Shown here piece by piece: positions 3,644 to 5,335 of a stretch of DNA of 5,335 nt. Below the pieces are notes generated by a model. The model had not been told where the DNA came from. It worked only from the letters and a program-made list of their open reading frames with translations, and searched no databases. Position 1 is the first letter of the stretch. Every line of letters starts with the position of its first letter. The stretch spans positions 8,910-14,244 of the forward strand of contig PLSH01000258.1 in assembly GCA_003165095.1 (NCBI GenBank). The letters run 5' to 3'. Both the position numbers and the translations under genes were made by a program. The DNA comes from Acidobacteriaceae bacterium. GTDB taxonomy: Bacteria > Acidobacteriota > Terriglobia > Terriglobales > Acidobacteriaceae.

Positions 3644-3667
3644 GTTCCCTGGATCTCCAGACCATGC

Positions 3668-3706
3668 TGAGGGTGCCTCCGGTCCCTGGCTTTTGGGGAC
3701 CGGGGA
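3668..3706 (+). repeat. Left terminal palindrome of the RAYT unit
   Basis: This 39-bp sequence is an inverted copy of 4329-4367 with three mismatches. It contains its own hairpin: CCGGTCCC (3679-3686) pairs with GGGACCGG (3696-3703) around a 9-base loop. A leading TGAGGGTGCC lies outside the stem. A single T at 3678 weakens a stem that is two pairs longer in the right copy. Confidence 0.85.
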
Positions 3707-4115
3707 GGGAAGCACCACGCCGCCCAAACTTTTCGGTTGGAGAATTCTCGCAGTGTATGAAAGGCCAGCGCATCCGTTATCAGCAAACGGGGGAGTTTCA
3801 CTCGCCTCACCTTCAGCAGTTTCCGGCGTCAGCCATACCTATCGACGGCGAGCGGCGATGGAGCTTTTTGAAGATGCGTTGGAGCGCGCTCGGCTGCGTT
3901 ATCTCTTTGCAGTCGCTGGTTACGTGGTCATGCCGGAGCACGTGCATCTGTTGGTCAATGAGCCAGGGCGCGGGCTCTTATTTAGAACCGTTCAGGCCTT
4001 CAAGCTGTCGGTTTCGATGCGCAGCCGCGAAAGACCATTTTGGCAGGCGCATTATTACGATTTCAACGTCTCATCGCATCAGAAGTTCGTGGAGAAGTTG
4101 CGATCCATTCATCGC

Positions 4116-4164
4116 AATCCGGGGTCCCCAGCACACGAACTTTGTGCGCTGGGGTGGAATCCGG
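4116..4164 (+). repeat. REP-like palindrome inserted in the transposase relic, with 7-bp direct repeat
   Basis: AATCCGG occurs at 4116-4122 and again at 4158-4164, a period of 42 bases (14 codons). Between the copies lies a palindrome: CCCCAGC (4126-4132) pairs with GCTGGGG (4148-4154). One A-C mismatch follows, then three more pairs (4134-4136 with 4144-4146). Removing one 42-base period restores the expected RAYT motif IHRNPVKGGL. The duplicated repeat gives the protein a second Asn-Pro (NPGSPAHELCALGWNP). This palindrome differs from the terminal palindromes of the unit, so it belongs to another repeat family. Confidence 0.8.
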
Positions 4165-4328
4165 TCAAGGGCGGCCTCGCTACCAAGCCCGAGGGGGGGC
4201 TCTGGTCAAGCTATCGCCATTATCAAACGGGAATGCACGGAAACGTAGAAATCGAATCGGAATGGACGGCCTGCGAGAGAGGCTGGCAACTGCCTGCGTG
4301 GATGCGCAACAGACAGCTCGATTCCCCT

Positions 4329-4367
4329 TCCCCGGTCCCCAAAGGCGAGGGACCGGGGGCACCCTCA
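4329..4367 (-). repeat. Right terminal palindrome of the RAYT unit
   Basis: This is the inverted partner of 3668-3706. Its internal hairpin is stronger: CCCCGGTCCC (4330-4339) pairs perfectly over ten bases with GGGACCGGGG (4349-4358) around a 9-base loop. The transposase frame reads through it to the TGA at 4371-4373. The stem could also act as a barrier to transcription or exonucleases, which is inference only. Confidence 0.85.
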
Positions 4368-4501
4368 ACTTGATAATGCGCGGTATGAGACCAGGGCCAC
4401 CCGCCGACAAACCGGGCACAGTTCGTGTCTATGTCGCTTCGCATTGTGCCGAGACCAACAGATGGTAGACTTCGACCTGTCGTTGCAAGGGATCCAGCAT
4501 T

Positions 4502-4807
4502 ATGCGTAGGGTGACAAAACTGCTGCTTAAATGGCTTTTCGTTGCTTCATTTCATGTTGGATACTTGCTCGTTTTGTACGGAGCAAAGGCACTTCGGTTC
4601 GTACCTGCTCCCTATCTTTTCAAGATATTCGTCTGGCTCGAATTGCCCTCAATCATCGCTTTTTCTCTCTACTATCATTTCCTTCTTCGATCGGACTTGC
4701 TGTCTGAATCCGGGCGTCACGCGACGGCCGCATCGTATTCAATCCTTGCCAGCCTGTTGTCACTTTATTGCGGCGTTTTTTTGTGTCTGAACACTTTTGG
4801 TGAATGA
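4502..4807 (+). CDS. Small three-helix membrane protein, function unknown
   Basis: I do not recognise this 101-residue protein. It has three hydrophobic stretches likely to span the membrane: about residues 7-27 (LLLKWLFVASFHVGYLLVLYG), 38-62 (around YLFKIFVWLELPSIIAFSLYYHFLL) and 76-98 (around SILASLLSLYCGVFLCLNTF). The basic N-terminus (MRRVTK) suggests the N-terminal end stays inside. The start is supported by AAGGGA at 4487-4492 with nine bases of spacing. A possible weak promoter (TTGTGC at 4444-4449, TAGACT at 4466-4471) lies just upstream. Base composition is about 46% GC by hand count, well below purA, where sampled lines exceed 70%. This fits recent acquisition or a weakly expressed accessory gene, although membrane proteins are always somewhat T-rich. 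It lies between two repeat elements, with no functional partner nearby. Confidence 0.65.
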   Translation: MRRVTKLLLKWLFVASFHVGYLLVLYGAKALRFVPAPYLFKIFVWLELPSIIAFSLYYHFLLRSDLLSESGRHATAASYSILASLLSLYCGVFLCLNTFGE

Positions 4808-4853: not shown

Positions 4854-4880
4854 CCAATCCACTAGACCAATCCACTAGAC
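4854..4880 (+). repeat. Tandem 13-mer CCAATCCACTAGA, two copies
   Basis: CCAATCCACTAGA occurs at 4854-4866 and again at 4867-4879 with no gap. A third copy of the core (GACCAATCCACTA, 13 bases identical to 4865-4877) is at 5103-5115, directly in front of mutM. The four-hairpin element lies between copies two and three. Confidence 0.85.
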
Positions 4881-4910
4881 CTCATTTCTCACAAGGCGCG
4901 TCAACGAATT

Positions 4911-4960
4911 TGTAGCGCCGGCCTCCTGGCCGGCTGTAGCGTGGGTCTCCCGACCCACGC
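4911..4960 (+). repeat. Left double-hairpin arm
   Basis: Outer stem: GCCGGCC (4917-4923), loop TCCT, GGCCGGC (4928-4934). Inner stem: GCGTGGGTC (4939-4947), loop TCCC, GACCCACGC (4952-4960). Both stems are perfect and are separated only by TGTA. Confidence 0.85.
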
Positions 4961-5019
4961 AGGACGCCGTTTGCTCCGTCACGGTGTGTGCAAACTATTT
5001 AGATGAACGAGTCTTTGCT

Positions 5020-5069
5020 CTGGCGGCGAGGGCGCCGCCAGTACAGCCGACCAGGAGGTCGGCGCTACA
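5020..5069 (-). repeat. Right double-hairpin arm
   Basis: On the + strand, the inner stem is CTGGCGGCG (5020-5028), loop AGGG, CGCCGCCAG (5033-5041). The outer stem is GCCGACC (5046-5052), loop AGGA, GGTCGGC (5057-5063). The arm has the same length and spacing as the left arm but the opposite orientation. Confidence 0.85.
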
Positions 5070-5113
5070 GAGCGTCGATCTGGCCGCGAGAAATGCAGGC
5101 CCGACCAATCCAC

Positions 5114-5119
5114 TAAAAT
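5114..5119 (+). promoter_or_regulatory. Candidate -10 of mutM, implying a leaderless transcript
   Basis: TAAAAT matches the sigma-70 -10 consensus at five of six positions and ends six bases before the mutM ATG at 5126. Transcription would start at or next to the A of the ATG. No ribosome site is visible before the ATG, which agrees with a leaderless message. No good -35 is seen at the expected distance (around 5091-5096). The hexamer overlaps the end of the third 13-mer core. Confidence 0.4.
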
Positions 5120-5125
5120 AGACCC

Positions 5126-5335
5126 ATGCCGGAGCTTCCCGAAGTGGAAACGATTGCCCGTGGCGTTCATGAGCGGTTGCGCGGAGACCGCATCGTGCAG
5201 GCCTGGTTCGGCTCTCATCCCGAACCCTTCAAGACTCCCGCGGCGCGCCAGTCCAAAAGCCTCGCGGGACGCGGCTTCCTCGCCGTCCACCGCACCGGAA
5301 AACACATCGTCTGCGAACTCGGTCCATCGGCCCCC
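5126..5335 (+). CDS. mutM: Formamidopyrimidine-DNA glycosylase, N-terminal part (3' end outside window)
   Basis: MutM (Fpg) removes 8-oxoguanine and formamidopyrimidines from DNA and nicks the resulting abasic site, starting base-excision repair. The 70 residues seen open with MPELPEVETIARG, the diagnostic Fpg/Nei N-terminus. Pro2, exposed after Met removal, is the catalytic nucleophile and Glu3 is the partner acid. The Lys in RTGKHIV (residue 59) matches the conserved catalytic lysine of Fpg near position 57. MPELPEVET favours Fpg over Nei (endonuclease VIII), but the C-terminal zinc finger is outside the window. The ATG is fixed by the motif. No Shine-Dalgarno sequence precedes it. Confidence 0.93.
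   Translation, partial: MPELPEVETIARGVHERLRGDRIVQAWFGSHPEPFKTPAARQSKSLAGRGFLAVHRTGKHIVCELGPSAP

Follow-up and report, generated by a model that had tools for sequence, protein, structure and literature searches.

The region upstream of mutM in an Acidobacteriaceae genome carries two inverted copies of a short hairpin which differ at two positions only, and these positions pair with each other. The question raised by this locus is whether such a compensatory difference reflects the preservation of a folded form, either as a DNA substrate recognised as a hairpin or as a structured RNA, as the original prediction suggested, and by which system the pairing would be maintained. The window (the whole stretch of 5,335 nucleotides that was analysed) and its relatives make it highly probable that the two arms are double-hairpin GTAG REPs of a RAYT (HUH/Y1) clade, lying head-outward in a non-autonomous, IS1380-ended MITE of 221 bp found at CTAG-like sites.

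An inverted-repeat search of the window recovered the 28-nt arms (4911-4938 and 5042-5069) as 93% complementary, with two differences. These correspond to positions 11 and 20 of the arm, which are mutually pairing in a 7-bp stem: G4921/C4930 in the left arm, and A/T in the right one (reverse strand, 5059/5050), form the fifth pair of a GCCGRCC-TCCT-GGYCGGC stem, as a G-C and an A-T pair respectively. The two-difference description of the outer 28-bp ends was therefore exact. The feature itself, placed at 4911..5069, is real but was drawn too small, considering the second hairpins (4939-4960 and 5020-5041) and a mobile unit reaching from 4879 to 5099. Each arm is a double hairpin of the type TGTAG-hp1-TGTA(G)-hp2, and in both arms the short stem-loop has GTAG as its 5' foot (4912-4915 and, in reverse, 5068-5065); two inverted REPs with a spacer, as in a REPIN, are thus present. 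The features of the region, with the evidence for each, are the following.

4854..4879, forward strand: two CCAATCCACTAGA units in tandem, preceding the element (repeat search).
4879..5099, no strand: MITE-like mobile element of 221 bp (full-length homologues with unrelated flanks in genomes G004, G005 and G009).
4879..4892, forward strand: left terminal inverted repeat (TIR), ACCTCATTTCTCAC, of the family CCYGCATTTCTCAC (copy comparison, TIR pattern).
4911..4961, forward strand: left double REP, TGTAG-hp1-TGTAG-hp2 (own fold, family profile, RAYT association).
4912..4915, forward strand: GTAG foot of the left REP (sequence; GTAG in 129 of the 152 readable family copies).
4917..4934, forward strand: left hp1, stem GCCGGCC/GGCCGGC, loop TCCT, containing G4921-C4930 (sequence, fold).
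4939..4960, forward strand: left hp2, 9-bp stem GCGTGGGTC/GACCCACGC, loop TCCC (fold).
4961..5019, no strand: spacer with a small inverted repeat, GTTTGC (4969-4974) / GCAAAC (4990-4995) (sequence, copy comparison).
5019..5069, reverse strand: right double REP, TGTAG-hp1-TGTA-hp2 (own fold).
5020..5041, reverse strand: right hp2, stem CTGGCGGCG/CGCCGCCAG (copy alignment, fold).
5046..5063, reverse strand: right hp1, stem GCCGACC/GGTCGGC, with the A-T pair at 5059/5050 (alignment, fold).
5086..5099, reverse strand: right TIR (copy comparison, TIR pattern).
5105-5117: a similar unit, CCAATCCACTAAA, right of the element (repeat search).
5126..5335, forward strand: start of mutM, formamidopyrimidine-DNA glycosylase (PF01149, E=3.7e-13).

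Each half of the element, folded alone, gives two perfect hairpins (-21.9 and -22.3 kcal/mol), none of 200 shuffles being as stable as either, and the whole 171-nt stretch folds with z = -10.4. In the full-stretch fold the arms pair with each other, C4930 being left unpaired and G4921 facing T5059. Thus, the G-C/A-T difference keeps the local hairpins and weakens the arm-to-arm pairing.

As regards the site, a DUF4440 gene lies upstream of mutM in 21 of the 30 relatives fetched; from stop to start, the two genes are 17-159 bp apart in 16 of these and 576-792 bp apart in 5, as against 1482 bp in the window; judging from this comparison of sequences, it is most likely that the intergenic region of the window gained a Y1 element, an orphan ORF and the MITE. 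The 101-aa ORF at 4502-4807, between the Y1 element and the MITE, contains hydrophobic stretches; it had no Pfam match, and none of 398 relatives' genomes matched it in a search run without a positive control. The CCAATCCACTAAA unit at 5105-5117 adjoins a possible mutM -10 (TAAAAT), and in one of the mutM relatives (L257) a different double REP is found upstream of the gene.

The hairpins are not confined to this site. The pattern TGTAGCGCCGRCCTCCNGGYCGGCTGTA was found at 60 loci in a scan of the genome-contig collection, belonging by title to 59 Acidobacteriaceae or Terracidiphilus MAGs and one Syntrophobacteraceae MAG (one of 61 matches was dropped for its duplicate context, though it came from a different genome), and among these 60 unique matches the pair of interest was G-C in 57, A-T in 2 and A-C in 1. 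An exact-pattern search over the phylum matched one of 297 genomes, the centre genome itself. BLAST matches to the element numbered 46, 47 and 48 in genomes G001, G003 and G004, and 2-40 in the others, which indicates many dispersed copies. The Syntrophobacteraceae contig (L014, PLSV01000020.1) bears an acidobacterial module, and misbinning is likely, since no more than 2 BLAST matches were obtained in its genome (G008).

For the covariation analysis, copies were collected with a sequence-only nhmmer profile, chosen to avoid selecting for structure, which was built from 45 seeds (all hp1-pattern) and searched against 1.17 Mb of fetched loci, themselves obtained partly with the hp1 pattern and the MITE query. 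After removal of N-containing hits and repeated contexts, the 219 aligned hits left 162 distinct copies, gapped cells being skipped. Over 15 stem pairs, two-sided Watson-Crick changes amounted to 319 cells (68 in hp1, 251 in hp2), against 53 one-sided cells and 9 changed on both sides yet unpaired, where cells count copies rather than events on a tree and are inflated by related copies. The hp1 pair 12-19 was Watson-Crick in 155 of 158 copies (shuffled mean 84) and the hp2 pair 32-47 in 131 of 144 (shuffled mean 41), the shuffles ignoring relatedness; all four Watson-Crick pairs occur at the latter, with counts of 46/39/33/13. The same excess is found in the 96 copies outside the fetch pattern (37 two-sided changes versus 19 in hp1, 134 versus 20 in hp2). 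Furthermore, perfect stems, of four types in hp1 and sixteen in hp2, occur in 133 of 151 and 89 of 115 copies, respectively. Aligning all the copies, the check proposed with the original prediction, hence shows strong covariation in the family: the hairpin shape persists while the stems drift in sequence from one subfamily to the next. By themselves, the two copies of the window offer a single pair, for which chance covariation between two unrelated palindromes might have been invoked; such an origin is refuted by the 162-copy test and retains a negligible probability. In some loci (L017, L052, L091-L093), hp2 is interrupted by a CTTCGACTGCGCTCAGGGCAGGC-like repeat, a repeat within a repeat.

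The strong folding and the location upstream of a gene might suggest that the hairpins owe their preservation to being transcribed, with a role in mRNA stability, in termination or as a small RNA, and frequent G-T pairs and proposed RNA roles are mentioned for GTAG REPs in passages of PMC3733652. However, the Rfam scan of the window gave no match at the gathering threshold, and the mismatch cells of the family (25 G-T, 17 A-C and 20 other) show no clear wobble tolerance of the G-U type expected in RNA, the excess of G-T over A-C having p = 0.28. Moreover, the module is tied to RAYT genes at 7 loci. Nothing favours an RNA hairpin over a DNA hairpin, and the structured RNA that had been offered as one option is very improbable.

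The link with RAYT genes comes from a PF01797 search of 12 genomes, in which 58 matches were listed, and from the scan of the flanks of 48 distinct Y1_Tnp places (50 loci, two of them repeated). The hp1 module adjoins 7 of the 48 places, on both sides in 5, where in four cases the two copies make a simple inverted pair; RAYT genes flanked by the same REPs, heads outward, were seen in four loci, and in several flanked genes the C-terminal codons extend into the module. All 4 flanked proteins tested exceed the NCBIfam REP_Tyr_transpos cut-off of 80, with 82-86 bits. In a 28-row tree, made from 27 loci with a Y1 protein passing a simple motif filter plus the window (the dREP-flanked L144 being left out), six flanked proteins form one clade (100/97) with no unflanked member. 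As the module flanks one RAYT clade, the arms appear to be GTAG-type REPs of that clade of Acidobacteriaceae, a link seen in relatives rather than in the host genome. The RAYT family recognises folded single-stranded REPs, and the association thereby backs the reading of the hairpin as the recognised form.

The arrangement is in line with what has been described for the GTAG REPs and REPtrons of RAYT/TnpA_REP (parts of PMC2817692, PMC3733652 and PMC8266576), which share the GTAG foot, the short perfect palindrome with a tiny loop, the many dispersed copies, some of them flanking a Y1/HUH transposase gene, and complementary changes among their stem subfamilies. REPs that flank RAYT genes and keep their palindromes through complementary mutations (PMC2817692), GTAG families whose complementary stems exist in alternative forms, as well as heterodimers (PMC3733652), and compensatory changes in REPINs (PMC3116915) are all reported in the sections consulted, and a mid-stem mismatch affects or almost eliminates the cleavage of a perfect-palindrome REP (PMC8266576). 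Unlike the REPs described there, the module studied here consists of two tandem hairpins, GTAG-hp1-(GTAG)-hp2, and no GTAG family of such sequence in Acidobacteria was found in the same parts of PMC2817692, PMC3733652 and PMC8266576.

The Y1 ORF of the window itself (3756-4370) was considered as the mobiliser and rejected: it lies outside the module-flanked clade, on a long branch of unsure placement, the palindromes flanking it differ from the module, it scores 49.8 against the NCBIfam cut-off of 80, and it reads LRSIHRNP where most of the relatives compared have RYIHRNP, a serine thus standing in place of the presumed catalytic tyrosine. This ORF (3756-4373) has its own inverted palindromes (GGTCCC...GGGACC), in repeats at 3667-3705 and 4330-4367, which recur in L014, L029 and L030. 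As a Y1 transposase with flanking inverted repeats it resembles the TIRYT/TIRtron of Acidobacteria described in part of PMC3733652; its place in the protein tree and its repeats differ from those of the REP module, of which it is not the mobiliser on present evidence.

Regarding the larger unit, BLAST of 4880-5100 gave full-length copies in genomes G004 (92%), G005 (88%) and G009 (87, 86 and 86%), together with a damaged sixth copy in G009 (75% identity), and their flanks are unrelated to those of the window, so that the unit occupies unrelated sites in three other genomes. It is short, TIR-bounded, with no coding capacity seen, and recurs at unrelated sites, as MITEs do. A family search with the 221-bp element matched only one of 300 genomes (G004), which is weak evidence of rarity, only two candidates having been scored in the genomes listed. 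A 17-base TIR pattern was matched 53 times in G003, 19 times in G010 and 18 times in G009, the reversed control giving 0-2 matches in these genomes (0 in G003); five further genomes had 1-6 matches to the pattern, and G002 and G013 had none. The REP module lies inside 19 of 20 TIR pairs of 90-300 bp (loci L161-L210), all in genomes chosen for having the module, and MITEs devoid of it may exist elsewhere; the lone module-free pair, of 290 bp, looks like a chance match.

With respect to the target, CTAG directly adjoins the left end of 6 of the 20 pairs and the right end of 8, as compared with 721 CTAG in 1,165,040 bases. Exact 4-bp duplications were found in 5 of the 20 short pairs and in 10 of 35 in a wider set, where the shuffled mean was 5.0 and the maximum 12 (5000 shuffles), so that a CTAG preference explains part of them. 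Clean duplications are CTAA/CTAA in L049 and L063 and TTAG/TTAG in L094 and L051; the window copy, which has CTAG on its left and CCCG on its right, lacks a clean 4-bp duplication.

Decayed transposase copies have the same ends. Locus L217 has both TIRs, CTAG on both sides and a PF13701 match between them, and L192, a longer remnant without the REP module, also has both TIRs around a PF13701 match; both remnants begin with MTECNQE. At L229, the contig ends inside the element after the left TIR, and the IS1380 match of 155.6 bits is below the NCBIfam cut-off of 180. No intact IS1380 element with CCYGCATTTCTCAC TIRs was found, including among TIR pairs further apart. Two candidates were discarded: L228, the strongest PF13701 match, which on checking had no CCYGCATTTCTCAC ends, and L191 as an autonomous element, which turned out to be a MITE interrupted by an IS110. 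In L191, the IS110-family sequence (975-2609; 160.7 bits, cut-off 140) lies inside hp1 of the REP module within the MITE; the targeting of REPs by IS is the subject of PMC1525189.

A second TIR family, GACCGCATGAWTTGGTAAT, also carries the REP module, as seen in 12 rows which do not estimate how frequently it does so, since they lie in loci retrieved by way of the module or of adjacent genes. In 9 of the 12 rows the distance between outer repeat edges is 109 bp, and CTAG is nearby on both sides in 9 of the 12. The repeat was matched in 10 of 10 genomes searched, with 3 to 28 hits against 0-2 in controls. Like other MITEs, these elements, here IS1380-derived, are 109-233 bp long, with no coding capacity seen, TIRs of about 14 bp, a CTAG-like target and decayed transposase copies with the same ends; they differ from ordinary MITEs in the REP module found in 19 of the 20 short TIR pairs, the longer L192 remnant lacking it.

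The same structure could be read as a REPIN that the RAYT mobilises as a whole, with 31-32 bp of outer sequence hitch-hiking at either end. Two inverted REPs with a short spacer make up the REPIN plan, and the outward heads of the REPs at the four flanked RAYT loci are in agreement with it. REPINs and HH REP heterodimers (parts of PMC3116915 and PMC3733652) share with the window element the local or long hairpin and partners with different stems and compensatory changes. However, the conserved unit does not end at the REPs: it runs some 31 bp past them, to 4879 and 5099, and ends at the CCYGCATTTCTCAC TIRs, which are changed in 2 of 102 cells (2.0%) among six intact copies, near the value for the stems. 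These TIRs also delimit elements with a single module (130-144 bp), as well as the IS1380-type remnants. Mobilisation as a REPIN is accordingly judged quite improbable, and the TIR-bounded MITE is preferred as the unit that recurs.

How the stems change once inserted was followed in the six intact 221-bp copies (window, L049, L062, L063, L074 and L087), all of which combine a left-hand G-C with a right-hand A-T pair. In the family, the pair is G-C in 143 of 158 copies, A-T in 9, A-C in 4 and G-G in 2; eight of the nine A-T cases come from the right-hand REP of a 221-bp element (L017 and the damaged L091 included), and the ninth belongs to a separate REP, at L024:112, a position identical with L142:112. 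The A-T variant being common to all six intact copies, the difference seen in the window represents about one event, an inherited difference between two REP subfamilies. The proposal of a hairpin recognised as such thus pointed in the right direction, in view of the family covariation and the RAYT flanks, but the single pair on which it was based records one inherited event. Among the copies analysed, L063, L074 and L091 form a subgroup in which the hp1-hp2 junction is partly replaced by GTCGCCGCGGCGACC, giving a new palindrome between the hairpins.

Stem columns were changed in 12 of 384 cells (3.1%) of the six intact copies and the remaining columns in 89 of 840 (10.6%), with a Fisher p = 3e-6 for stem versus rest in which the cells are not independent. 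When the damaged L091 is added, the contrast falls to 8.3% versus 11.7%, but this copy is poorly aligned and is the source of 17 of the 28 changed cells; a lack of stem conservation in inserted copies, which rested on it, was rejected, and without it the stems are conserved. The 11 changed pair cells of the intact copies comprise 7 broken, 3 G-T and 1 two-sided, and with L091 the counts become 19 broken, 5 G-T and 4 two-sided. The original prediction would have attributed the covariation to chance if stem-breaking changes were as frequent as pair-preserving ones, and within the 221-bp copies this is what was observed, though the changes are few. Preservation of the folded form holds, therefore, between subfamilies, where compensation is seen across the 162 copies, and hardly at all in the form of compensation among copies of the 221-bp element.

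Two mechanisms bear on this contrast. If the hairpins were selected in place at each inserted copy, as binding sites or through the expression of neighbouring genes, stems would be conserved at unrelated sites, as they are in the six intact copies (3.1% versus 10.6%). Selection in place is nevertheless unlikely: only 1 of the 11 changes is compensated, the copies lie at unrelated places, the contrast shrinks with L091, and a recently spreading shared ancestor with selected stems gives the same contrast. Stem conservation may act by either route. Alternatively, covariation could be mutational, through quasi-palindrome correction, in which template switching between hairpin arms copies changes without selection. 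Perfect palindromes with short loops, such as these, are good substrates for this process, and the low stem divergence of the intact copies, as well as a two-sided change from C-G to T-A in hp2 of L087, of which L062 shows the T-G state, would agree with it. Yet 10 of the 11 changed stem cells are still unpaired or G-T, states which fast correction should remove, so that correction is considered a rather doubtful source of the covariation.

In the preferred explanation, the dispersed REP module flanks RAYT genes and retains its stem complementarity during subfamily drift; by analogy with RAYT biochemistry, the RAYT would have to recognise the folded single-stranded hairpin, and lineages which restore pairing would keep spreading. 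The REP pair of the window forms part of a TIR-bounded unit that recurs at unrelated sites, and this 221-bp unit would have been moved by an IS1380 transposase. The G-C/A-T difference would then go back to the union of two REP subfamilies into a heterodimer in the MITE ancestor; it leaves both local hairpins intact and lowers the pairing between the arms. Against this explanation stand the REP feet: among the 152 copies left when 10 without a readable foot are set aside, 129 have GTAG, 15 GTAC and 8 another foot, and the foot at the RAYT of L146 is GTAC as well, despite the loss of cleavage that a GTAC foot caused in the S. maltophilia system (PMC8266576).

Compensatory changes in REP stems are already known and ordinary for REPs; the unusual part is the REP module riding in DDE-type, CTAG-targeting MITEs, of which no report was found in the parts of the open-licence PubMed Central literature covered. 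A more tentative idea is that of a standing partnership between two unrelated systems, in which CTAG-targeting DDE-type MITEs of both the CCYGCATTTCTCAC and GACCGCATGAWTTGGTAAT families might carry the RAYT hairpin module, the HUH system keeping the pairing and the IS1380-type system spreading it. If this were true, one small element would combine ends for an IS1380-type transposase with folded single-strand sites for an HUH enzyme. Finally, the family provides a natural covariation data set on a double-hairpin REP of one RAYT clade in a little-studied phylum, comprising 16 types of perfect hp2 stem, and a system for telling the spread of REPs by RAYT from their hitch-hiking in a DDE MITE, which bears on the question of how REPs disperse.
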